Source: Agarophyton chilense
Taxonomy: Eukaryota; Rhodophyta; Florideophyceae; Gracilariales; Gracilariaceae
NCBI GenBank assembly: GCA_030374765.1
Contig: JARGXX010000116.1
Location: 558,001-622,000, forward strand
DNA: 64,000 bases
Direction of reading: 5' to 3'
Position 1 is the stretch's first letter. Every line of letters begins with the position of its first letter. Below, piece by piece: positions 4,975 through 56,235 of the stretch. The position numbers and the translations under genes were made by a program. The notes beneath the pieces were generated by a model, which had not been told where the DNA came from, made no database searches, and was given only the letters and a program-made list of their open reading frames with translations.

Positions 4975-5270
4975 TGCAACAAACATGTACAGATAGTACA
5001 TCTTTCAAGCAACATCATTGTAGAGATGTTGCATCATTTGTGTAATATTGTTGCATATGTTATGCGTTTAGAACTATCTAGAAGTTATGCGTTTAAGGGC
5101 GATTTAGAGGGGGTCAACAGTCTATATAAAGAGGACCTGGTCCCCGACTTTAGTGACTTTTGGGAGATAAGATCTCAGACGGTACGAAAAGTAAAGTATA
5201 ACACATTGCATCACTCGAATATCGCACCGCGCTCCCCGATAGCCACCCTAGCCCAGTTGCCTTCGTTGCA
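4975..5270 (+). repeat. Gypsy-1 5' LTR
   Basis: 296 bp, bounded by the 6-bp inverted termini TGCAAC and GTTGCA. It holds a TATA-like box at 5123-5130 and is preceded by the CACAT target duplication. The LTR is rich in copies of TTGCA/TGCAAC within its first 90 bp. Confidence 0.95.
5123..5130 (+). promoter_or_regulatory. TATA box of gypsy-1 5' LTR
   Basis: TATATAAA sits about 150 bp into the LTR. The 3' LTR copy carries one substitution here (TATATAAG). It probably sets the start of the genomic transcript. Confidence 0.55.
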
Positions 5271-5271
5271 C

Positions 5272-5287
5272 TGGTAGCATCGCAGGT
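5272..5287 (+). promoter_or_regulatory. Gypsy-1 primer-binding site
   Basis: Starts one base after the 5' LTR with TGGTAGCATCGCAGGT. It would pair with a tRNA ending in GATGCTACCA. The TGGTAGC start resembles initiator-Met primer sites, but the tRNA identity cannot be fixed without the host tRNA set. Confidence 0.6.
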
Positions 5288-26269: not shown

Positions 26270-28441
26270 TTAAGTGGTCGTGAACAGGTTCTTAATGTCC
26301 GAGATGCGACATACATCCTCGAAGAAACGAGAGGCGAACTGTCTCCCGTTGTCGGAGAGGAGGTTGACCGGTGGACCGTAGACGAAGAGCCAGTGTAGGA
26401 CGAAGGCTTGAGCCACGCTCATAGCGGAGATCTCCCGTAACGGTACGGTCCGGACCAGCTTGGAGAAGCGATCCGTAATTACGAGTAAGAACTTGTAATT
26501 TCGCTTAGTGGTAAGGAAGGGACCGAGTATATCGATGGCCACAAACCCCAATGGAGCGCGAGCTGGAAACAGCTTCAACTTCGTCGCATGACGGCGGAGT
26601 TTGATACGGTTCCGAGTGCAATCGGTACAAAACCGCACCGTTGCGTAGCAGTACACTGCCACGGCAGGCCAGTAGAAGTTACGGCGTAGGGTGAGGTAAA
26701 GTTTCCGTCCCCCGACGTGGCCACTCAGTTTGGAGTAGTGCGACAAACGCAATACTCTCGACTGGAGGTTATATGGTACCACGATTTGTGGGTGCGACCC
26801 GAAAGTCCGTACAATGTATCCGGCGTCATTCACCTGAAAGGGGAGAGTACCTCCCCCATTGAGTTGAGAGCGGACCTTCGCGAAGAACGATTCAGCGAAT
26901 TGCTCCCGTATCATCTCCTCTGGAGTAATAGGCACGAAGTTCCCTGGTAAGGGTTTCTCAGAATCTTCTGAGAGAAGAAAGTCGTCCAATTCGGAACCGG
27001 AATCTGAAGAGTCCGTGTCTCGTTCCTGGTCTTCGATGGTAGCGTCGTCCCCATTCACTGCAAAGCAGGGTATTTCATCGTTTTTGACGGGTAGTACTTC
27101 GCCAGTAGTGACCAGGCGGGAGAGAGCATCGGCGTGGGTGTTGCAAGATCCTTTTCGGTACTGCACGTCAAAGTCAAATTCCGCTAGACGGAGACGCCAA
27201 CGCATCAAGCGGCCTGAAGGCTTCGAGATGGAGAATAGCCATCGAAGTGATGCGGGGTCCGTAAAAACGGTGAAATGATTACCTATGAGATAGGGGCGCA
27301 ACGTTTGTAATGCCGACACTACTGCAAGGCATTCCTTCCCCGACAAGGAGTAATTCTTCTCGTGGACGTTTAGCGAACGGGACGAGTACCCTACGGGGCG
27401 TCTTTCCCCATTGGGTGCAGTTTGAAACAGTGCACAACCAACTTGGTAGTCGCTGACGTCCGTATCTACGGTGAAGGGCCTTCCAGGATTGGGCAACGAG
27501 AGGATCGGGGCGGAGACGACAGAATCCTTAAGAGAGTTGCAAGATTCAGTTTGAACGGGGGTTAAGGGGTCCAGTTTTGGTGGTGGGACTTTCCGCAAAA
27601 GCGCGTTTAACGGTGCAGCCTTGTCCGCAAATTGCAGGATGAATCGTCGGTAGACGTTTGCGAGTCCCCGAAAGAAACGAAGCTCGGTTTGCGTCCCCGG
27701 TTCTTTAGCCTCTTTTAGTGATTTAACACGAGTCTCCTCGATTGTAACACGTCCTGGACGGATATCATGGCCGGGAACCTTCACGGTGTCCGTGAAGAAG
27801 TCAAATTTCTTCAACTTAAGAGTGACACTCGCATCTCGAAGTGTGGTCATGATGTCCCTCACATGAGTGAGATGTTTGTCTAGATTATCTGAGAAGACGA
27901 TTATGTCATCCAGGTAGACCAGGCAGGTACGCCATTTGAAGCGGGCCAATAGGATGTCGATGGCTCGCTGGAAAGTAGCGAGGGTGTTGGTAAGACCAAA
28001 AGGCATATGTTTGAAACGGTAGAGACCGGAGTGACACGCGAAAGCGGTTTTATTGTGGTCTTGCTTCCTTCCCGGAACTTGCCAGTATCCCCAATTGGCG
28101 TCCAGGGTTGTAAAGACGGTGGCGGCGCCCACTGAGTCAATGTACTCGTCCATTCTTGGGATTGGATACAATTTCTTGACGGTGACGGCATTAAACCGAC
28201 GGTAGTCGACGCAAAACCTCCAGGAACCATCCTGCTTTGGAGCAAGTACTACTGGAGAAGCCCACGGAGACTGAGCCGGTTCAATGACTCCTGCTCGAAG
28301 CATTTTATCCACTTGTGCCTTTTCCTCAGCACGTACGGCGGGTCCGGCACGGTATGGGTGCTGAAAGATGGGTCGGGTGTCCGGTAGCAAATCAATCCGG
28401 TGTTCCGTAGTGACAATCTCACCAAGGGAGCCGTCCCACAT
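26270..28441 (-). pseudogene. pol: Gypsy-2 pol: reverse transcriptase, RNase H, integrase
   Basis: A 723-residue open stretch. The RT has VDYRRFNAVTVK, FTTLDANWGYWQV, MPFGLTNTLATFQ and the catalytic YLDD in CLVYLDDIIVFS. RNase H has FTVDTDVSDYQVG, LSGKECLAVV and ADALSRLV. Integrase has an HHCC finger (HYSKLSGHVGG...FCTDC), the first Asp in VAIDILGPF and the second in LLSDNGRQF. The frame then ends at a TAA just before HPQTNGQAER, whose Glu is the third catalytic residue, so the integrase is truncated by a nonsense codon. Another stop (about 28461) separates this stretch from the protease in the same frame. Confidence 0.92.
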
Positions 28442-30671: not shown

Positions 30672-30676
30672 ACGGT

Positions 30677-31346
30677 TTTGACATGTTTGAATCTGCATTG
30701 AAAGGGACTTGTAGCAATTGCGCCGCGATGTCATCGTATATGACACATTGACAAGAGCTAATGCAGCTGCAAGGAAAAGGTTACAATCGAATACTATACT
30801 GAGTGCAAAACGGAGCACGGAAGAGCAAGGGGCACGAAAGAGAGGGGACTGCCTAACGAGGGAATGCAACTCCAGAAACGAGCGCGGCGAAGTAGTCTGC
30901 GGACGGGCGGCAAGACGATTGAGGTTTAGTGCAAGAGTACGAGAGCAGAATGCTCACTGATGAAGGAACGCCCGGAAGGGGAGGGGCCACACAACGAGAG
31001 TGTGGACACGGAGGGCAGCAAGACAGATGGAGATAAGGACGTGTGGGTGTGGGTGGCGTTAGCATTAGAACAATGCAACAGGACTGTAGGAGGCATTAGC
31101 ATTAGAAGCTTGCCACAATACGACGGAAGTCGAATGCATAGAATAGGGATTGAAGGGACAGGCATAATAGAGAGGACAGACCATGAGTATAAAAGGAGAG
31201 AAAGAACGAGGGATGAGAGATAAAACCGAAAAAGGGGGGAAGCAGAGACGAGAATAAAGCGACCTGAAGACGGTGATCTTCCGGCTTGTGCCGAAACTCT
31301 TCCACGTAGTAGGTACATCATGGCGCTGAACTCGAATGATCTCACA
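30677..31346 (+). repeat. Copia-1 5' LTR
   Basis: 670 bp. It includes a TATAAAA box at 31188-31194 and ends CTCACA. The gag ATG (31320) lies inside it, so the first nine residues of gag are encoded by the LTR. Confidence 0.93.
31188..31194 (+). promoter_or_regulatory. TATA box of copia-1 5' LTR
   Basis: TATAAAA about 130 bp upstream of the gag ATG. The same box is at 36606-36612 in the 3' LTR. Confidence 0.6.
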
Positions 31347-32624
31347 GTTATGGGCCCAGCCCTGACTGTATCTCCGCGGAAACCAACTCACCCACCCCTG
31401 TTCGATTCGACCACAGTGAAGTTCAAATGGCAAGACGAGGTGCGCCACTGGGTGCGCATCGTCAAACGTATGTCCGACGGAGGTTGCAAATATGCTCGCG
31501 CTACCTGGAGCGCGCTTGGAGACACTCTATATCTCGCGGTAGACGACTCAGCTAAACAGCTACTCACCCATGCTATCTTGGAAGGACTCTTTTTCTTGGG
31601 CCGTTGTGAAGATGATGAAGACTCGAGCGAGATGGTCGAGAAGATGCTCAACATCGTGGCGGAGGACACCCCCACCGAGAATGTGAAGAGGCTAGTGATG
31701 ATGATGAAGAATATCCACCAATGCACCAGAGCTGCTTCAGAGACGCCCATTGAGTACGCACGCAGATTTAAAGGACTGGCAAGTCTTTACCTTACTCACA
31801 GCAACGCCGGACACTCTACTCAAGACGCACAGTTATTTTCCATGCTGTTAATCGAGAACGCACGCCTCCCTGAGACCACTACGACTCATATCGTCCTACA
31901 GTTGGTCAACGATACCACCCAGCGACCATTGAGCGATCTCACGGAGAAGATATCCGTGTCGCAGTTCAGGCTTCGCAAGCTCGACGAGGAGATGAGAGCC
32001 ATTTGTCAAGGTATTGACACGCCGACCATGAACATCGAAGAAGTTAAGGCTCATCTGTCATCAGGGGAAACAATCCTGAAGGCCATATACAACGATGATC
32101 TCAAGCTGAGACAACAGGAAAACCGAATTGATATCACTCTTGATGCGCCCGTCCGAGCGATAAGCGAAATAACAGTCAGTACAACTCCGACAACAAAGAG
32201 TCCATTCATCCCGACGGTTACGACGATGCTCGGCGTTCAGGAGAAGTCGCCGGGCGGATTAAAAGATAGAACCAGATTCGCCGAGAGGAAGGCCGTCACG
32301 AAGTGCCGAGCTTGCGGCCAGCGCGGACATTGGTGGCGTGACCGGCCCAGTTGTACGCAAGTGATCCTACAGAAGTCATCCAGTAATGCTCTCGTGAAGA
32401 TGCGTGAACCTCTTCGATTCGACGACCGAAAGAAGAAATTCCCGCACTACGACACTTCTGGGGGATCTTCCGACGCCAGAGTTCCCCCTACGCGAGAAAG
32501 TACACCAGCGGATATTGCGCCTCAAAATCGTTCTTTTTTTCGTCAATTGGATCTGCATCAGCCCCCGCAGATCCCAACCCAATACCCGACGAGGGTGCCC
32601 CCACGTCGACAGGGGTCGTGCTAA
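31320..32624 (+). CDS. gag: Copia-1 gag
   Basis: A 434-residue protein. The N-terminal part has FKWQDEVRHWVRIVKRM and a capsid-like helical region to about residue 240, including SETPIEYARRFKGLASLYL. A knuckle at about 320-337 reads KCRACGQRGHWWRDRPSC. The CCHC spacing places Arg where the fourth ligand Cys is expected, unless the later Cys is used. A Pro-rich tail ends at the stop 32622-32624. Pol lies in the -1 frame and overlaps by a few bases. The ATG at 31320 is inside the LTR and is the first in-frame ATG downstream of the TATA box. Confidence 0.85.
   Translation: MALNSNDLTVMGPALTVSPRKPTHPPLFDSTTVKFKWQDEVRHWVRIVKRMSDGGCKYARATWSALGDTLYLAVDDSAKQLLTHAILEGLFFLGRCEDDEDSSEMVEKMLNIVAEDTPTENVKRLVMMMKNIHQCTRAASETPIEYARRFKGLASLYLTHSNAGHSTQDAQLFSMLLIENARLPETTTTHIVLQLVNDTTQRPLSDLTEKISVSQFRLRKLDEEMRAICQGIDTPTMNIEEVKAHLSSGETILKAIYNDDLKLRQQENRIDITLDAPVRAISEITVSTTPTTKSPFIPTVTTMLGVQEKSPGGLKDRTRFAERKAVTKCRACGQRGHWWRDRPSCTQVILQKSSSNALVKMREPLRFDDRKKKFPHYDTSGGSSDARVPPTRESTPADIAPQNRSFFRQLDLHQPPQIPTQYPTRVPPRRQGSC
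31347..31360 (+). promoter_or_regulatory. Copia-1 primer-binding site complementary to the initiator-Met anticodon arm
   Basis: Directly after the 5' LTR comes GTTATGGGCCCAGC. This is the reverse complement of GCTGGGCCCATAAC, the anticodon stem-loop of animal-type initiator tRNA-Met (12 of 14 match the plant form). That fits half-tRNA priming, known from Drosophila copia and Ty5, rather than priming from a tRNA 3' end. It overlaps gag codons. Confidence 0.75.
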
Positions 32625-35600
32625 ATGCAATGCGGTTGTGCGATGCGCTTGGAATCCAGCTCAATCTCAAGCCACCGCAGAAGGATTACTTTCACGGATG
32701 GGGCATTCAATGTGCAGATGCGAAGAAGATCACCGCTTCTTGGACTGCCACCATAGCTGAAACCTCAGGGTTGCCTACGTCGTTTACATTTGATCTCGTA
32801 GACGGCTCACCTCCCCTGACCCTCGGGCTGGATGTGAAGAGGTACTCGAACACCCTCAACCTCATCTCTCCTCCATGCATAGTGTTTCGGAGGCCAATGG
32901 ACACCAAGCCCAGGAGATTCATCACCTACCTGACCGAATCAGATTGGGACCCTCGCCTCAGACTAGAGTTCGCTCCTCACCCAAGGTCAACATCACAGAG
33001 CTTGCTCGCGAATACGCATGGACGGGCAGGCTTATCCCTAGCCAAGAAAAATCACAGGTTTACACATGCGCCATCCGAGGAGATGAAGGCTCTATATCGG
33101 ACTGCCAGGTTGCTCACTCCCTCTCTTGAAAACGCGTTCGACGCAGTTCATACTGCCTGTGATATCTACTCATCGGAAGGGCGACCGCGGAATGTCAAAA
33201 AGATTTCACTATCACACATTAATCAGGCGTTCAATGTAGAGCTCCAGGCAGATTTCATGTGAGTAGACTACAACAGAAGCAAGGTGGTAATTCTGAATAT
33301 GGTTGACACTGGTACAAGGTATGGAGAACGGGTAGTGGCATCTAACAGGAGAGCCGATGTAATGGCTATCCTTATCGACGTACACTGGATTAACGTGCAT
33401 GGGGCACCCGAAAGTTTTAGTTCGGACCCCGAATTCCAAGTGCCCAAGATACGGAAGTTGCTTGAGCTCCATGGAATCCGCATGAATCCTCGTCCGTCCC
33501 GGAGGCATCACAAAACCGGGCTAGTTGAGAGGAACAATGGGGCATTTCGAGCCGTGTATGATCGCATGGTGAAAGAACTACCGTCGGTACCGGTACACGT
33601 CGTAATCGCTCGATCCTCGTTCCTGACCAACCTGTTCTCCGGTTCCAGTATCATGAGCTCGTTCCAACTTGCGCGGGGATACTCGCCATCAATATTAGGG
33701 CTACCTGCTTCGCATGTCTCCCAGTCCCTTCTCGATGCGCATTGTGAAGCCACTGCCACACGAGCCGTACAGAAGTTGCTCAGATCCAGGGACCCCCATA
33801 CTATCCCCGACAACTTATTGACTCCAGGAACACCCGTGTATGTCTTCTATAATACCAGTTCCAATAGTGTTAAGAAGGGATGGGTCAGGGCTGCTGTGGT
33901 CGAGGCCAGTCGGCATGGCGTTTTATGCAGGAGATCATCTCGGGGTCGGCCTATGAATGTGGCCTACGTAAACATCAGAATCGCCCCACAAGGGCCGTTG
34001 ACGGATGATTTAATGTCCCGCTCTATGGAAGAGGAAGCGACAACCGCCGAGTGTCAACAGCTTCCACCGCCGAGTCAGTCAGCTTTAGCTTCAGGTGCTA
34101 CGCCCGACAGCAGTGACAGAATTGTCTCAGTCGACCATACTCCTAGGGCAATCCCGGACACTCCACCTCCGCGAGCAACAGCAACAGCTCCCGAGACAGA
34201 TAGTATCCCCCCCGACGTCACGGAACCGCATGTGACTCGGTTTCATCCTACACTGATGGCCTCAAATTGCCTAGGAAATCCGCTTAAGGATATTGGGAAT
34301 GTCAGCTTCACACGTGACGAGGTGCCACTCACGAAGCTCAAATCGAGTAAGCAACAGGTCCTTCCAAAGATCCATGAGCAAATGGGGAACAGCCAGCTCT
34401 CGCGGTCGAAGCTGGAATATGCTCCGTCATATATCTTGGACGAAGCGTTCGAGGAAGAGCACGACTCCAACTAGAGCGAGGCATATGTCGAAGTTAGGGA
34501 GGGCGACGTTCCCCCAGACGCGAACGTAATCACGTCGCATGTCATACATAAGATGAAGCAAGAGGTAGGCGGTGATCGCCGGATGAAAGGGAGGATTGGG
34601 CCGCATGGAAATCGAGACGACGAGAAGGACAATATTAGGAAAGATTCCTTAACGGCGCAGTTCGCGGTGATTCGTCTGCTGTTATGTCTGACCACGTTCT
34701 TGGGTTTCAGGTTAGGACATGCGGATGTCAAAGGATCCAACCTGCAGAGTGGCCCTATCCGCCGTGATATCTACGTGAGACCCCCTAAGGAATTGAGCGG
34801 CAGCCGTAGAACTCTATGGAAGCTGATTAAGTTGCCGTACGGGATTGTGGAAGCTGGCAGGCAATGGCAGAAGACCTTTGAGACCTGGGTACTTCGCGAC
34901 GCTGGGATTGAACGAGTTTTCGGGATTAGTCAGTTATATAGGCTGCGGGATTCCAACAGGAAGACCACACTATTGGTAGCTAAGGTAACAGACGACCTGC
35001 TTATGAGTGGCAAAGTGGAGCATATGCGAGAATTCTCTGAGCGTCTTCGTACTCGATTTCGAATCAGTAAGGTCCTACTAGATACCCGACTCGAGTTCAA
35101 CGGCTGCAGCATCACCCAGACAAGGAATGGCGATGTCCTCATCAATATGCAGTCATACATGGATTCAATCGCTCCGCTTCCTATAACCCGGACATGCCGT
35201 AAGGCGGATAACGAGAAGGCCACTCCGGAAGAGATCACCTTGTACAAAGGCCTCGCTGGTGCACTGTTATGGGTTGGAAGTGGAGTGCTCCCGTAAGCTA
35301 CGTATGCTGCTTCCGCCATACAACAGAAATTAGCCTGCTTGAAGGTCTGCCACCTCCGTGAAGCCAATAATATTCTGAAGGAGCTTGGAGCATTGACGCC
35401 GTCCATCATGTACCGAGCAACCAGCGCCCCGATCATCTCCGCCGAAGTGTGTACGTTTTCAGATGCGGCCTTTAACATTGGGGCCCATCAATGCTACGGA
35501 CAGACTGGTATCCTCACAGGCATTCTGGTTAACTCCGACTTCGAGAAGCTACTATACCACCTCATTGATTGGACGAGCAACAAAACAGCACCGGGTGAGC

Positions 35601-35985
35601 CACAGCTCCTACGGCGCGGAGATCATAGCATGCGCGGATTCAGACGATCGAGGATTTCACTTGCGAAGCTCACTCCGATCTTTCGACAGCGACTGTGGCA
35701 TCAAGCACGCGTTGCACGTGGCCTCGGGGGGGCTCTACGACACAATCACTACCTTACACGAAGGTAAGGAGTATAAGCTCAGGCAGACTGTGGAGCGTAT
35801 CCGTCATTCGTTTGAAGCCCGCGATTTGGATGTCCTCCGATGGATACCCGGTAGGATCAACCTCGCGGACGCACTAACCAAGCGCGACCTCCGGATGCAT
35901 CGCCTACTTAATTGTGTCGCAACAACAGGTATTCTCTGCATAGACATTTCCTCTGGCTATGAGCTCGATAGCGAAACTTGGGCAT
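32618..35985 (+). pseudogene. pol: Copia-1 pol (protease remnant, integrase, RT, RNase H)
   Basis: Starts with a protease-like region (LNAMRLCDALGIQL) whose active-site Asp seems to lie in another frame. Integrase has ELQADFM (first Asp), FSSDPEF (second Asp) and GLVERNNG (Glu). The RT has GHADVKGSNLQSG and TDDLLMSGK. RNase H has HSSYGAEIIACADSDDRG and the end NLADALTKRDLRMHRL. Three stops interrupt one frame: TGA at 33260 (a Trp would be expected), TAG at 34472 and TAA at 35294. A frameshift near 35590 moves RNase H to another frame. The element cannot make a whole polyprotein. Confidence 0.88.
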
Positions 35986-36094
35986 AGAACGTTGTAAATG
36001 GTTAAACGCTCTGAATCTTCTTGTGGCTATCGTTCCTGAAGCTACATGAGTCACCCCAATAGTTCTTCGGCCCTATTGCGGCGACTGGAGGGTA

Positions 36095-36764
36095 TGTGAC
36101 ATGTTTGAATCTGCATGGAAAGGGACTTGTAGCAATTGCGCCGCGATGTCATCGTATATGACACATTGACAAGAGCTAATGCAGCTGCAAGGAAAAGGTT
36201 ACAATCGAATACTATACTGAGTGCAAAACGGAGCACGGAAGAGCAAGGGGCACGAAAGAGAGGGGACTGCCTAACAAGGGAATGCAACTACAGAAACGAG
36301 CGCGGCGAAGTAGTCTGCGGACGGGCGGCGAGACGATTGAGGTTTAGTGCAAGAGTACGAGAGCAGAATGCTCACTGATGAAGGAACGCCCGGAAGGGGA
36401 GGGGCCACACAACGAGAGTGTGGACACGGAGGGCAGCAAGACAGATGGAGATAAGGACGTGTGGGTGTGGGTGGCGTTAGCATTAGAACAATGCAACAGG
36501 ACTGTAGGAGGCATTAGCATTAGAAGCTTGCCACAATACGACGGAAGTCGAATGCATAGAATAGGGATTGAAGGGACAGGCATAATAGAGAGGACAGACC
36601 ATGAGTATAAAAGGAGAGAAAGAACGAGGGACGAGAGATAAAACCGAAAAAGGGGGGAAGCAGAGACGAGAATAAAGCGACCTGAAGACGGTGATCTTCC
36701 GGCTTGTGCCGAAACTCTTCCACGTAGTAGATACATCATGGCGCTGAACTCGAATGATCTCACA
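36095..36764 (+). repeat. Copia-1 3' LTR
   Basis: 670 bp with intact TGTGA...TCACA ends. It is preceded by the short purine run GGAGGG (36088-36093), a possible polypurine tract, and followed by ACGGT. Confidence 0.93.
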
Positions 36765-36769
36765 ACGGT

Positions 36770-49736: not shown

Positions 49737-50120
49737 ATGGAGAGCAACTCTTTCTATTGCTGGGACGTGAACATGATGAAATGTTGTGGTGGCGAAGCGG
49801 AGACTCTTCCACTGACAACGTCCTCTGCTCCGTCTTCACCTCCAGCCAAGAAGCCCTCCTCTAAGACGGTGAAGGAAAAGGAGCGAGAAAGAGGTTCGCC
49901 GTCTGCGACGGAGGGTACGGTGAGCCAGGTGGTGAGGAAGAACGAAAGAAGGCCTGGAAGTCCGGTGACTCGTAGTAGCGCCGTTCACGACATTCCAAAC
50001 TTAGCTAGTGAGGAAGAAGATGGGACCGAGAGAGAAGCGAAGCGGCGACGGTTTAGTGGTTCCGATGTTGCTAACGTCGATGACAAAGCTGACTGCAATG
50101 AGGCAGTGGGGATGGTTTAG
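49737..50120 (+). CDS. Small hypothetical ORF with low-complexity sequence
   Basis: 127 residues from ATG 49737. Mostly Ser/Pro/Glu/Lys low complexity with a basic EREAKRRR stretch that could act as a nuclear signal. It may belong to the neighbouring transposon. No family was recognised. Confidence 0.2.
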   Translation: MESNSFYCWDVNMMKCCGGEAETLPLTTSSAPSSPPAKKPSSKTVKEKERERGSPSATEGTVSQVVRKNERRPGSPVTRSSAVHDIPNLASEEEDGTEREAKRRRFSGSDVANVDDKADCNEAVGMV

Positions 50121-50410
50121 GAATGAATGAGGTACGCATAGGCACTGCTGTCTCAAAGAAACACGTCTTGGATGAAGCAAAATACAAAATCCTTCCAGGA
50201 GGGAGTGGTGGACGGAATAAGGGCCAAGTTCGTTTTCCAAGGGCCGTACCAAGCGTGAGCGGGGAGGGACGTGTAGGGACGGAGCCTAAGGGAAAATGAG
50301 TCGTTGTGGGAAAGAAGGGGGTGCAGGTTCGCAAACTCCCGCCACGCAGATCAATGCAACGGTCTTCTTATCGGCAGAATACGGATCATGCAGTGAGGAG
50401 TGTCTAACAC

Positions 50411-52182
50411 GTGGACGCTAAGGGTTCCAACGACCAAGGGGGTTCGGGGAGACCTCTGAATAACCAGAGTGTGAGGAAGTGGATAAAGGGAGGCGAGGTT
50501 GAAAAAGCAGAGGGACTCTGGGGTGGGGACGAGGAGGATGAGGATTCAATTCGCCCGGGGGCAGAAGGCGAACGAAAGGGGATGAAGTATGGAGAAACGA
50601 AGTTTGTGGGGCAGAATCAGCTGCTAGTCAACCTTGGCGACATGAAGTTGGAGCTGAAAAGGGCAAGGGATGACAACGAAACTAAGCTGGAAACTCGCAC
50701 ATAGGGAGATGAAGAGACTGGAGGGCCAAGATAGGAAAAAGGAAGTGTTGCTGACGTCATTGCAAGAGACTCATCGTGGTCGACCTGGACAAGTGGGTGG
50801 CAAAGAAGGGAAGGGGGGTCGGAAACGGTATGGAATTGAATTTGATATGCGATTTATTGGAATAGCCCCGAGAGTGTACGAGAACATATGGCGCTATGCA
50901 AAGGAGAAGACGAGTGAGCTGTGCTTCCGAAGGAGGGATCGGGAGCAAAACTGGTCGAACCAAGCAGAAGAAAGGAGGGTGGGAAGGAATCAGATTATTC
51001 TGATTACAAATGAAAAGGAGATGGTGCCTTTACATCTTATGGAGCTGGCAACAGGAAGAAAGTCGTGTGGACCGAAGGCCTACACTCTGTCTTTTCAGGG
51101 GGGAACTAATGGGATGTTATTGCATGTGGTGCGGATGGAATTGGAGAATCTGATACTGAGAACATTTGCGGGGATGGGTATGAGAAAGCAGTGTGAAGGG
51201 GAGTTGAGGAGAGATACGTATTTGAGGAGGCGGATGAAACAGGCTCTCAGTGACGCTGTGAGGGTGCAGATAAGGAATGCGAGGGATAGTTTTTTTGGTT
51301 CTGGCGTATACTCTACTTGCTACGAAACATCTTAACAAGGATGATGAAGAACTGAATGTGTTGTATGAAAAGCAGAAGATGGAGGCTCGGGAGAAGTTGT
51401 TTCCGAAAGACCCGAATGGGGAGCCCGTAAAATCTGCGTGGAGGTTGGACAACCTGGAGAACCTATGTGTTTCAGGGTACGATGTGACCTCGAAAAAGTA
51501 TGAGGATGAACCTGATAACTTGTAGTTCAAGAACGGATTGAGTGTGGAGGTGTTGAGAGAATTAATGGAGTACGATGTGGAGCAACAGTGGAGGGAAGAA
51601 GAGACACAGTATGTGGATGGAAGTGTGATGCATCTGGCGCGCTTGGATGCCTGGATTGCATCTGTGGTAGAGGCGTTGGATGAGGAGATGGGTAGAGGAG
51701 GGATCCGACAGATGCTGTTTTCGAAACTATATGCGAAGCATCTGCCGGTTGCTGTGGAGAATATCTCATGGACAGCGAGAAGAAAAATGGAAGAGAAGTA
51801 CGGAGAGGAGCTTGTAAACCATGGTTTGAAGGATAAGGACCCGACTGTGGTGCTGGAAAATGAGGAACGTGAAGGGACCGTTGCGTTTTGGATTCCGTCG
51901 AACTAAGTGGTCTATCTGGGTGTTCGGTAAGAGGTATTTCTGGAGGAGATGACGACTTTTCTCGAATATGTATTTGATTGCTACGTCGGACGTTATATGA
52001 CTGAAGAACGCGAGTTTAGGAAGTTGCTAGCGGATGAGAAAGAAATGTGGGAGGCGAAAGAGGAAAGTGAGGGGAGAGAGAGAGAGACTGTAGAAGGCGA
52101 AGGTGAACAAGATACTATTGATGAGTTATCACTTTATTATCAGAAGATGGGTGTCATTTGCTTCAAGTTGTTTCTTTTTTAG
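50411..52182 (+). pseudogene. Second gene of the 50-57 kb transposon, broken
   Basis: A chain of plus-strand frames that read on from one another: 50411-50704, 50670-51335, 51277-51525, 51538-51906 and 51949-52182. Coding character is strong (ELRRDTYLRRRMKQALSDAV, AWRLDNLENLCVSGYDV, SVEVLRELMEYDVEQQW), with stops and one-base shifts between pieces. It is acidic and helical. I do not recognise the family. It is convergent with the transposase, and the two meet at about 52185, which suggests a two-gene element. It could instead be a captured host gene. Confidence 0.4.
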
Positions 52183-52186
52183 AGAA

Positions 52187-55100
52187 ACAAGCTCTCGCTC
52201 GTGGGTCGCGGTAGAATCTATTGATATAGAAGCGATATTGATGCCAGGGGAGGGGCGGGAAGAAAGGGCGTGTTGGGTAGTTCTGGGGAACCAGATGGAC
52301 TGAACTGAGGATGGTGGAGAAGGGAACGAGATCGATCCAGAGTGCGACATAAGAGCCAGAGCTTTGGAATCTGTTTCCATCGGGGAGGATGGTGTTGGCC
52401 TGTTCATCTTCTGCTGCCCAACGGAGGGTGATGCACTTCAGGGTTTCATCCACGTAATCGAGGGGAGTTGTGAGTTTGAAGAAGCGGACGAAAGTGTATT
52501 CGCGTTCGTCATGATCTTCATCTCTTTGGGAAGCGGAGCAGGGCGGGGAATTTGCAGACCCAAACAGTGAGGAAGTTGCAGTTAGGGGGTGGAGTACTGA
52601 AAACGAGAATGTGGGAAAACTTCGGAACTTTGGAAGGACCAAAGGCGGAGGTGGCAAATATGCACTGTATGACGTGGAATTGTGGTTCCCTGAAGTGGAT
52701 GAAGTTGAATGTTTGGTTGACGTCTAGAAAGAGGGGGAGAACCCGCTGTGAATGGAGACGAAGGTGAAGAGGGAGAAGGTAAGAAAGGAAAGAGACTGGG
52801 AAGAAGAAGAGAGTCCGAGAGCTTCGAGGCACAGGTCGTGAAATGGTGAAAGGGCGTCGCGTGAGATATGGGTGATGAATGAGAGGGTGGAAGAGGTGAA
52901 GATGTTTGAAAGAGAGGCATTGGAGCAGGTTTGGTTAGCACGGAGGTACTTCTTTGCGGTGATGATGTCGCGGAAGAGGACGGCGGTACCTTCGCGGACC
53001 ACCGAAAGCCATTGAGCACAACGGAAGGAGAAGTTTGAGGAGGATTAAATGTAATGGGAAATTGCAGTTGGAATTTGGAAGCCTTCTGTGAGTCGGATTC
53101 CGTCGACTATTTCTCTGTGAGCAGTTGAAGATCTTCAGGATGTGCGTCGATAATGTTTTTTGAAGAGGAGGTGTGCGTGTTCATAGATGCCGGCGTCAAT
53201 GAATTGAAGACCTCCTTATAGACCAATGTCAGCAATGATATGGTCCGGAAGGTGGAACTTGAGTGTTCCGAAGTGAGAAGCATGGAAAGGGGCGAGGATG
53301 AAGACGCAGAAAGACTTGAAGTGCTTGATGAGTTCTTGGAGGGCGCAAAGTCGTTGGTCTCTCCATTCTGAGGTGGTGTTGTGGCGGAGTGTGGCGGTGA
53401 AGAGGTCTGCGTATGTCATGAAGATGGAGGTGATAGGAGCTGTGTCAAGTTCACCACGGTAACGGTCGAAGAAGGAAACTTTGAAAGGGAAGACCATGTG
53501 GACAGCACAGTAGTCTTTTGCCTCGAGCATGCCTTTGATGCCGTCCGTTGTGAAGAACCCGTTTAGGTATGTACTCTTTTCTGGTGTGGAAAAGTCGATG
53601 TGCAGTCCGGGTGCGGAGAAGTTGGAATCGATATTTGCGAGGATGTTGTTTGCGTGGGTGAGAAGGGAGCTTCGGATGGATTTGAAGGATTTAGAGGAGC
53701 CGTTGGAGGACACGACAGTGGTGAAGAGGCTGTCGGACTTCGAGCGTTCTATGGTTGCCAGTTTGACGAGCTTGGAGATACCCAGATGGAAGTTGTGAAG
53801 GGGTTCGAAGGAGAAGATAGAGTAAGGGGTGAGGAGTGGGGATATGTTTAGATGGGAGTATGCTTCGAAGAAGGAGTGGTACGTGGAGAGGGAGTTTGTG
53901 CGGAGGAGAGATGCTGCTTGGTCTCTGAGAATCTTGCTACGCGCGGTCGGCGAAGTGGTTCGCCGTCGTTGGCATCTTTGAGAAGAGCGTCGTGTGCGGA
54001 TCTGCTGTAACGGCTGTGGGAATCGGTTCGAGGGGATAGAGAAGTGAGGTGGAGGTTGAGGTCGGGGCGAGGTGTTAGGCATCTGTGGCAGGGCTTGGAT
54101 GGGTTTGTGCCGTGTTGGATGGCGAGGATGTCTTTTGCTTCTGGGATGTCTGCAGCACAGTTTGCGATGACTGGGTTGCACTGTCACATGACCTGGTCTT
54201 CATCACGGAAAGAGAAACCCTTGAGGGTGACTGAACCGAGGGGCTCGAGGATGGTTTGTAGAGATTCCAAGATGAGTTCCATTCGGGTGGTGCGACTGAT
54301 GGCTAAAGAAAGAGGTGGCCTTCGATGGATCCCTCGTGGGATAGGAAGGAAGGGGCGTCGAACGAGGTGGGGAAGTAAACGAGGAGGGTGTAGTTGCGGG
54401 AGATTCAATGGCGGCGGAAGGATTCTGAAAAGATGAGGAGGGTGATTTGAAGGGGGTTGGAGTTGATAGAGAAGCCTTTCAGGGATATAGACGACTTGTC
54501 CGAGTAGAGCTGTATGAATCCGATGAATGATTCTATGCCAATGATGTCGACGTTATGCCAAATAACATATGGATCTTGAGAGCAGAGGATGTGGTGTTTG
54601 AGGTCCGGATAGACACATCTACCGAGTTTCGAAGCCATGGGATGAGCATGTGCCGGAAAACCATCTGAAGAACACTGTCGGAAGGGGTGGAAGAAGGTGT
54701 TAGCGCGAGTGGCGTCTCCGAGTTCCTGGAGAAGGAAATCGACGGGGTTTTTAAGGTAGAGAGTTGCAGTGATGTTTGAGGGATTGTGACGAACGGTTGT
54801 GGATTTGAAGCCCATGGAGCCGACAGGGTCCTCGAATAGTTTGGAATGAAGTTGAAGGCAGTGAGGGACTCAGATTACTTGTTGGATGAGTGTTCGGGAG
54901 TAGTCGGGGTCCTTGAGGAGGGTGATGAATTCGTTGGCTTTGCGTTCGCCGAGCTTGGTGGCGATGAATTAGATGTAGAAGACAATGAGATGGAGCTTTA
55001 CGGGTGGGCGAGGGCTGGGAGAATGGGAGCGAAGAGAGGCGTGGAGAATATGGGCGGCGTCTGCGAAGCGTATGGCTAGAGCGAGCTGGCTTGAATGGTA

Positions 55101-55507
55101 GTCTTCCTCTCCTACCAGCGGGACGTTGTTTGAAAGGCGGTTAGAGATACGGAAGGAGCGGGTGTTTGCGGTCTAAAAGCGTGGAGGCTTCGTGTGCTGT
55201 TGTAATTGAGTTCCATCTTTCGGGGTGGTGGCGAGGAAGGGGTTGCGGGTGGAGCGGTAGCGACACCGGCGCTGGTGTTGGACAAAGAGGGTGTGCCTTT
55301 TTGTCTGGAAGGTGCACCTTGGGAAGGGACAACGCTGCAAGGTGTGGAGAGTGCCTGCGCGCGATCTCGGAAGGAAAATCGGGAAGGTAAAAAAGACGTA
55401 GGACGAGGTGAGAGGGGGGAGAATATATACAGGCTGGAGGTGAGAAAGATGCAGGACGAGGACGGTGGGGAGAGTTTAAACTTATCACGCGTACTCACCA
55501 AGGTCAA
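52187..55507 (-). pseudogene. TNP2/Plavaka-like DNA transposase relic
   Basis: Reading the minus strand in order across frameshifts gives the block layout of TNP2/Plavaka-type transposases. It runs from a Ser/Pro-rich N-terminus (55507-55112), to FIGFIQLYSDKSSISLKGFS (54460s), to LESLQTILEPLG and a NPVIANCAADIPEAKDILA...CHRC block (54180-54050). It continues through LLTPYSIFSFEPLHNFHLGI, LKFHLPDHIIADI (53230) and a Y-R-R-T-S stretch, to the end DLVPFSTILSSVHLVP and QYRFYINRFYRD (about 52210). At least four frameshifts or stops are present. The family call is by pattern memory; CACTA-type is the nearest broad label. Confidence 0.55.
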
Positions 55508-55509
55508 GT

Positions 55510-55537
55510 GACGCGCCAGAGACGCGCCAGAGACGCC
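55510..55537. repeat. 11-bp tandem repeat, about 2.6 copies
   Basis: Unit GACGCGCCAGA at 55510-55520 and 55521-55531, then a partial third copy. Confidence 0.7.
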
Positions 55538-55859
55538 CTAAAATCGTGTGGCAAGACAGACACGGCGCGTTTGTAACCTGGAAAGTAGATTGGAATGAAA
55601 ATATTAAAAGCTGTATATTTTTTGAGCAGCGGCTTGTAGCTGTGTTGATTGTGAGTTGCGGCCGGATGAGCAGTAGCTGGATCTTGAGATCCTCTGATAT
55701 GATGTCGCCTGGACCTGGGGCACCTTCCGCGTTTTCTAGGTGCGTGAGAAGTGGTATTGTGTGCATTTTCACGTGCTTTTCACAAGTGCTGACTCTATTT
55801 CAATATATGCGCAAACGGGCGGAGCACGACCGGGGCGTTAAGTGATGCAGCATGAGTTT

Positions 55860-56235
55860 GAGGGTGAGAGGTTGGCCAGCTTACGATTGGGAGGTACGTG
55901 GTCTACTTTGATCCCGTGTGTCGAATCTGTTTCTGGTAATGCGCGAGCTCGTGGAGCGCGAATGGAGAGATAGGTGTCGCGGCGTGAGGTCGAGGGTGAA
56001 GGGGGTGACCGGCTGGTAATTGGGAGATACGTGATGCACTACGCTGACCCGGTGCGTTGGCTCTCTTCCTGGTCATGCACGAGCGAGCAGAGCGCGAGTC
56101 GAGCCATAGGTGATGTCGCTTGGAGTGGAGGGGGAGGGAGTGACTGGATTGCGATTGGGGGTACGTGGCGCGCTATGTTGATTTGGAACGTTGACTCTCT
56201 TTCTGGTTGCGAGCATGGAAAAACCTATGTCAGCG
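55860..56235. repeat. Imperfect tandem repeat of about 133 bp, three copies
   Basis: Anchors such as GATTGGGAGGTACGTGG (about 55884), AATTGGGAGATACGTGA (about 56018) and GATTGGGGGTACGTGG (about 56152) recur every 133-134 bp. Each is followed by a GCGCGAGT/GAGCGCGA-type block. The copies are well diverged. Confidence 0.65.

Follow-up and report, generated by a model that had tools for sequence, protein, structure and literature searches.

Copia-type elements of a red alga seem to start reverse transcription from half of an initiator tRNA. In the window (the whole stretch of 64,000 nucleotides that was analysed), the 14 bases directly after the 5' LTR of one such element, GTTATGGGCCCAGC at 31347-31360, are the exact reverse complement of nucleotides 26-39 of the host initiator tRNA-Met (14/14). 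We consider it probable, at about 0.8, that a Ty1/copia element is primed here by the 5' half of this tRNA, that the primer site is translated as well, and that the AUG within the site starts Gag-Pol in clade II, a divergent copia lineage.

The copia-type element and its putative primer site

The element and its immediate flanks comprise the following features:

30672..30676, no strand: left target-site duplication ACGGT, the same 5-mer being present on both flanks
30677..31346, + strand: 5' LTR of 670 bp, the last bases of which (TCACA) adjoin the primer site
31188..31194, + strand: TATA-like box within the 5' LTR, on the basis of a sequence match only
31320..32624, + strand: gag frame of 434 amino acids with its ATG within the LTR; the zinc-knuckle match is weak and under the Pfam cut-off
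31347..31360, + strand: putative primer-binding site, complementary to initiator tRNA-Met nucleotides 39-26; in the gag frame it reads GTT ATG GGC CCA (Val-Met-Gly-Pro)
31350..31352, + strand: ATG of the primer site, the three bases that complement the anticodon; codon 11 of Gag in the window and apparently its codon 1 in the sister lineage (clade II)
33263..34474, + strand: integrase-like piece, 5' of the reverse transcriptase (RT), from BLASTP and DDE-like residues judged by eye
34475..35296, + strand: RT piece (RVT_2, E=8.7e-16)
36095..36764, + strand: 3' LTR of 670 bp
36765..36769, no strand: right target-site duplication ACGGT, matching the left copy

The two LTRs show 7 differences over 670 bp, once the 5-bp duplication ACGGT is allowed for. 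Both end in TCACA, and they start with TTTGA in the 5' copy and TGTGA in the 3' copy; because the two LTRs disagree at their second base, which hides two end bases, the BLAST alignment of the pair comprises only 668 bp with 6 differences. As is typical of Ty1/copia elements (Pseudoviridae), the LTRs are accompanied by a short target duplication, and the RT is of the copia type (RVT_2, 58.7 bits versus a Pfam cut-off of 31.6). Its match to the RT of clade II (34% over 270 aa, E=2e-49) is closer than its match to that of a further group, family A (25% over 193 aa, E=2e-10). Pfam detected no integrase in window 33284-34471, even at E 10; the integrase-like piece matches the piece upstream of the clade II RT by BLASTP (E=2e-13), the Integrase_H2C2 match of which is itself weak (E=0.014). 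The gag frame is open, and the pol pieces (32408-35987) are interrupted by stops and spread over more than one frame, so that the window copy looks defective. Sequence searches of the PDB with the integrase-like and RT pieces returned no retroelement protein, Rfam at gathering scores found nothing in the whole window, and no relatives of the window RT turned up in searches of the viral contig, genome contig and phage collections.

The initial annotation had claimed that the 14 post-LTR bases pair with the anticodon arm of an initiator tRNA-Met, and the pairing proved to be exact with the host's own three identical genes, the anticodon arm matching at 14 of 14 positions. These genes are the only places in the genome at which the 15-mer CTGGGCCCATAACCC is found; all three are tRNA-Met(CAT) genes (ARAGORN), identical across 73 nt. 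At the window site the match stops at 14 bases, the 15th being unpaired. The site is complementary to an internal part of the tRNA and not to its 3' end, which is a feature of the genus Hemivirus, and the presumed 3' end of the tRNA half (C39) falls exactly at the LTR edge (31346/31347). The complement of the anticodon CAU is AUG, and as the site complements this anticodon, it contains an AUG. It had also been proposed that the gag ATG lies within the LTR and that the primer site is coding, and indeed the 434-aa frame that begins with the ATG at 31320 crosses the site. The in-frame ATG within the site (31350-31352) is a feature that the initial annotation did not contain.

A site for the 3' end of the initiator tRNA is present elsewhere in the window, at a Ty3/gypsy element:

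5272..5283, + strand: comparison site of the Ty3/gypsy element, TGGTAGCATCGC, complementary to the 3' end of initiator tRNA-Met

This site directly adjoins the gypsy LTR (4975-5271), and the 12-mer TGGTAGCATCGC has 55 copies in the genome versus 4 for the reversed control. Priming of the copia element by the 3' end of the initiator tRNA was rejected, because a site of that kind looks different and is present at the gypsy element. The 3' end of some other tRNA, pairing from the internal TGG (31351 onwards, TGGGCCCAG...), would be a very improbable primer: the site does contain a TGG, but the block shared by the elements begins four bases before it (GTTA) and stops where the match to the initiator tRNA stops, the bases 3' of the block vary from family to family, and a normal 3'-end site, as seen at the gypsy LTR end, has a different appearance. 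Least probable of all is self-priming, in which the 5' end of the element RNA would fold onto the site. Self-primed LTR elements are known (PMC6317226, in excerpt), but no 7-10-base complement of the 14-base site exists anywhere in the 670-bp LTR, and in a folding comparison the window leader did not outperform its shuffled versions (z -0.39).

Two further observations concern the window outside of these elements. Another pol of the gypsy type, with RT, RNase H and integrase, is located upstream of the copia element on the minus strand (26270-28441), and positions 50001-56000 have a strong + strand GC skew (~0.40-0.44), for which the short tandem repeats in this region do not account.

Conservation of the site in the genome

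The host is most likely a red alga, as judged from its RuBisCO. The only large-subunit match is located on contig C39, next to a thioredoxin-like and an rbcS-like frame (both named by eye), and this gene arrangement is a trait of red plastids; the best PDB match is 8bdb, a red algal enzyme, with 1054 bits versus 966 for the next entry. The 13-mer core of the site, GTTATGGGCCCAG, has 579 copies in the 79.76 Mb of the genome, three of which are tRNA genes, whereas ~2.4 copies would be expected at equal base frequencies; the reversed 13-mer has 0 copies. On these numbers, chance and fragments of tRNA genes were rejected as the source of the sites. A G precedes 347 of the 579 sites, including the tRNA genes, and extends the pairing to tRNA nucleotide 40; the remaining 232 sites have a preceding base other than G (H-type), which is A or T in all of the 100 listed. 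On contigs C1-C8, 22 of the 29 RVT_2 copies listed (drawn from 150 scored of 1,517 candidates) have a 13-mer on the same strand 2.8-3.7 kb upstream, and seven have no exact 13-mer in this range, one of them sitting 0.7 kb from a contig end.

A DNA search with window 31240-31500 yielded 40 places, ten of which cross the LTR end into the interior. Besides the window copy, these ten junction-spanning copies comprise five close relatives (92-96%) and four that have diverged further (L106-L109). The window copy and the five close copies keep 14 of 14 bases, the diverged copies have 0, 1, 2 and 1 changes in the 13-mer, respectively, and no conserved alternative site of the 3'-end type was seen in the copies of the family. 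The match to the host tRNA together with this family conservation lends support to the earlier proposal of half-tRNA priming.

Several groups of sites are arranged in tandem. At C6:5154-74466, the 13-mer and RVT_2 matches recur every ~5.94 kb, and one unit (L084) has the site at both ends; evidently, elements of family A are arrayed head to tail here. On contigs C75, C91 and C92, a similar regular spacing is seen for RVT_2 matches. At C1:1036874-1039660 (L019-L021), G-preceded sites follow each other every 1,393 bp and no long frame begins nearby, and these repeats are possibly a short non-autonomous element in tandem.

Conservation was also approached from the protein side, with queries that in both cases begin with residues coded by the site itself. 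The clade II query consisted of the first 100 residues of the Gag of copy L010, the first three or four of which are coded by the site; 150 of 405 candidates were scored, and 59 matches are located on contigs C1-C55, for which the listing of H-type sites is complete. Among these 59 clade II gag copies, recognised by protein similarity, 39 carry an unaltered, in-frame site at the Gag start or close to it, 19 keep it with one to three changes and an intact ATG, and a single one of the 20 non-exact copies (L118) has none. The third bases of the site codons GGC and CCA, which are free by the genetic code, are kept in 56 and 55 of the 59 copies, respectively, whereas third positions 3' of the site differ in 62% of the clade II comparisons described below. 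With the start of the window Gag as a query for the window lineage (clade I), 93 candidates gave 61 matches, 19 of them on C1-C55. The exact site is in frame in 12 of these 19 copies, with one displaced by a codon. Seven lack the exact site, and the six of them outside contig C33 have one or two changes each; in one clade I copy, ACG takes the place of the site ATG. The complementarity, the position at the LTR end, the conservation, the reading frame and the structure of the copies are established by these sequence comparisons.

The site AUG and the start of Gag

In clade II, the AUG of the site appears to be the start codon of Gag-Pol. Of the first 100 H-type sites in the list, one in five was sampled systematically (n=20, 301 bp each); the sample includes five near-identical ones (L100-L104). 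In 12 of the 20, the AUG frame stays open beyond 72 codons, versus 3 and 0 for the other two frames, and seven of the eight interrupted samples are still gag-like by eye (L086 is not). An upstream in-frame ATG is present in only two of the 12 open samples (L092, L094); the other ten have no in-frame ATG in the ~80 nt upstream, and seven of these have an in-frame stop there. In L087, a single codon separates the upstream in-frame stop from the site AUG, at which its Gag would begin with MGPAPNSTSSDLPSRPRFSWDLKQAPWTDGKGDQ. The AUG has a G at -3 and a G at +4 in clade II, both contributed by tRNA-complementary bases.

One clade II copy, at C6:700842, has LTRs that are identical over 269 aligned bases and, by eye, GGGGT on both flanks. 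Its frame comprises 1,532 codons from stop to stop, ~23 of which precede the site AUG (as judged from L091 of the same family), and its RT-bearing stretch L130 is uninterrupted and shares the frame of this AUG. It should be noted that L130 (C6:702200-704900) also encodes a Tudor-like domain (aa 449-489 of the open frame) between the integrase-like part and the RT, with a Pfam Tudor_3 match (E=4.4e-7) that exceeds the cut-off.

In clade I, Gag mostly begins ~8-13 codons upstream, within the LTR, and reads through the site. The N-termini are MALNSNDLTV|MGPA in the window, MNQNSNPVVTV|MGPE in L133, MANHHETTV|MGPG in L138 and MSDSFAKPVTV|MGPA in L141, with the bar marking the position of the site ATG. 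L139 has two upstream methionines, 13 and 8 codons before the site, and L095 looks like clade I by eye, but no in-frame ATG precedes the site over the part that was read. In the window, ATGs follow the TATA-like box (-159) at -134, -27 and -11, the one at -27 being the gag start. In the G-preceded families that were read, gag begins downstream or no long gag frame extends from the site AUG; in family A (tandem unit L084 of 5,939 bp), the AUG opens a 10-codon frame and gag starts ~1.2 kb downstream.

The short frame of family A and the upstream Gag start of clade I would both fit ordinary half-tRNA priming with an incidental coding overlap, so that the site AUG would be idle in translation and the Gag of clade II would start elsewhere. 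We regard this as rather unlikely. The frames of clade II start at the site AUG, and in many cases an in-frame stop closely precedes it. In L010, no other ATG lies between the TATA-like box (at -131) and the site AUG, the nearest upstream ATG being at -149. Furthermore, third codon positions 3' of the site differ in 62% of the comparisons versus 33% of the first and 27% of the second positions, in seven clade II sequences that were picked for having the site and with the site codons excluded. On this comparison, the codons after the site are under coding constraint in clade II, which argues against an incidental overlap.

Proposed mechanism, known systems and base 3 of the site

Under the preferred reading, with the site AUG starting Gag-Pol in clade II, minus-strand DNA would be primed by a 5' initiator-tRNA half whose last nucleotide is C39, or C40 at the G-preceded sites. 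This half might be produced by RNase P cleavage, as a review states for Ty5 (PMC5371799, in excerpt). We infer that such a tRNA half exists in the alga, that it acts as a primer and that ribosomes start at the AUGs; they would initiate at the site AUG in clade II and at the upstream LTR ATG in clade I. Translation and priming would be mutually exclusive on one RNA, and plus-strand synthesis would recopy the AUG from the tRNA in every cycle.

A wider reading, which we put forward only tentatively, is that the initiator anticodon writes the start codon of the lineage, so that the AUG copied from the primer would be decoded by the same tRNA species. The ribosome and the primer could then not share one RNA, so that the element would possess an intrinsic switch between translating its RNA and reverse-transcribing it, and the frequent changes at base 3 of the site would mark the modified A37 of the tRNA, by copying across it or by poor pairing. 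The division of one retroelement RNA between these two uses is a recognised question (PMC3735527, in excerpt). If the same tRNA species needs the same AUG for both, this question would become testable at a single codon, and the N-terminus of Gag (MGP) would be tied to the sequence of a host tRNA.

Half-tRNA priming as such is already known, for example, from Osser, which comes from Volvox; the part that may be new is the fusion of the Gag start codon to an anticodon-complementary site. The known half-tRNA Ty1/copia elements (genus Hemivirus) include copia, 1731, Ty5 and Osser (PMC1181622 and PMC5371799, both in excerpt; PMC8515867). Like the window element, they have an LTR-end site that complements the anticodon arm of initiator tRNA-Met; a site AUG serving as Gag start is not described in the text compared. 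Excerpts of PMC1181622 list Osser among the half-tRNA elements and describe the Hemivirus half-tRNA group as not monophyletic. Half tRNA-Met sites have also been reported for the plant lineages Osser, Bryco and Gymco-II (PMC6317226); these resemble the site described here in different hosts, and the excerpt does not mention an overlap with a start codon. The host lineage is thus less far from known half-tRNA cases than had been claimed in the initial annotation. Fungal copia elements and Helenus use the anticodon loop of tRNA-iMet, -Tyr, -Ile or -Asp (PMC10886601, in excerpt), so that the iMet site is shared with the alga and the hosts are fungal; the term 'start codon' is absent from the text of that paper.

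Primer sites located inside gag have a precedent in yeast Ty1, the PBS of which lies within the GAG ORF (PMC4974528, in excerpt); Ty1, however, uses the 3' end of the tRNA, and its site hence contains no anticodon complement. GalEa-like copia elements have reported red-algal members (PMC3587641, in excerpt), but the metazoan members carry TGGTAGCAGAGC, a tRNA-Met 3'-end site, in contrast to GTTATGGGCCCAGC in the window. Among the titles and abstract openings returned by searches of an open-access library, none describes a half-tRNA primer site that includes the start codon of gag. The present results add a red alga to the hosts with sites of the half-tRNA type, which are present there in many copies.

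The third base of the site is opposite A37 of the tRNA, and t6A37 is present in eukaryotic initiator tRNA. Among the 20 clade II copies without the exact site, 10 differ at base 3 (seven have A and three have C), with the degenerate L118 as a possible eleventh case, and these changes occur in families in which T is also found at base 3. Two clade I relatives have an A at base 3, which in this clade is a synonymous Val position. Genome-wide, 833 sites have at most one mismatch and 254 have exactly one, 57 of which are base-3 variants (14 A, 10 C, 33 G) versus ~20 if mismatches were even over the 13 positions; this count is inflated by inheritance, because 23 of the 33 G cases are located on contigs C40-C59 in an apparent repeated array. 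The variation at base 3 is no more than a hint of a trace left by the modification of A37, and the variants may naturally document how a modified base of the tRNA is copied. Contigs C40-C59 contain near-identical interrupted clade II copies, some of them ~12.4 kb apart, in what looks like a large repeated array, and in this array a GTG variant of the site is found ~3.15 kb from the clade II copies on the other strand.
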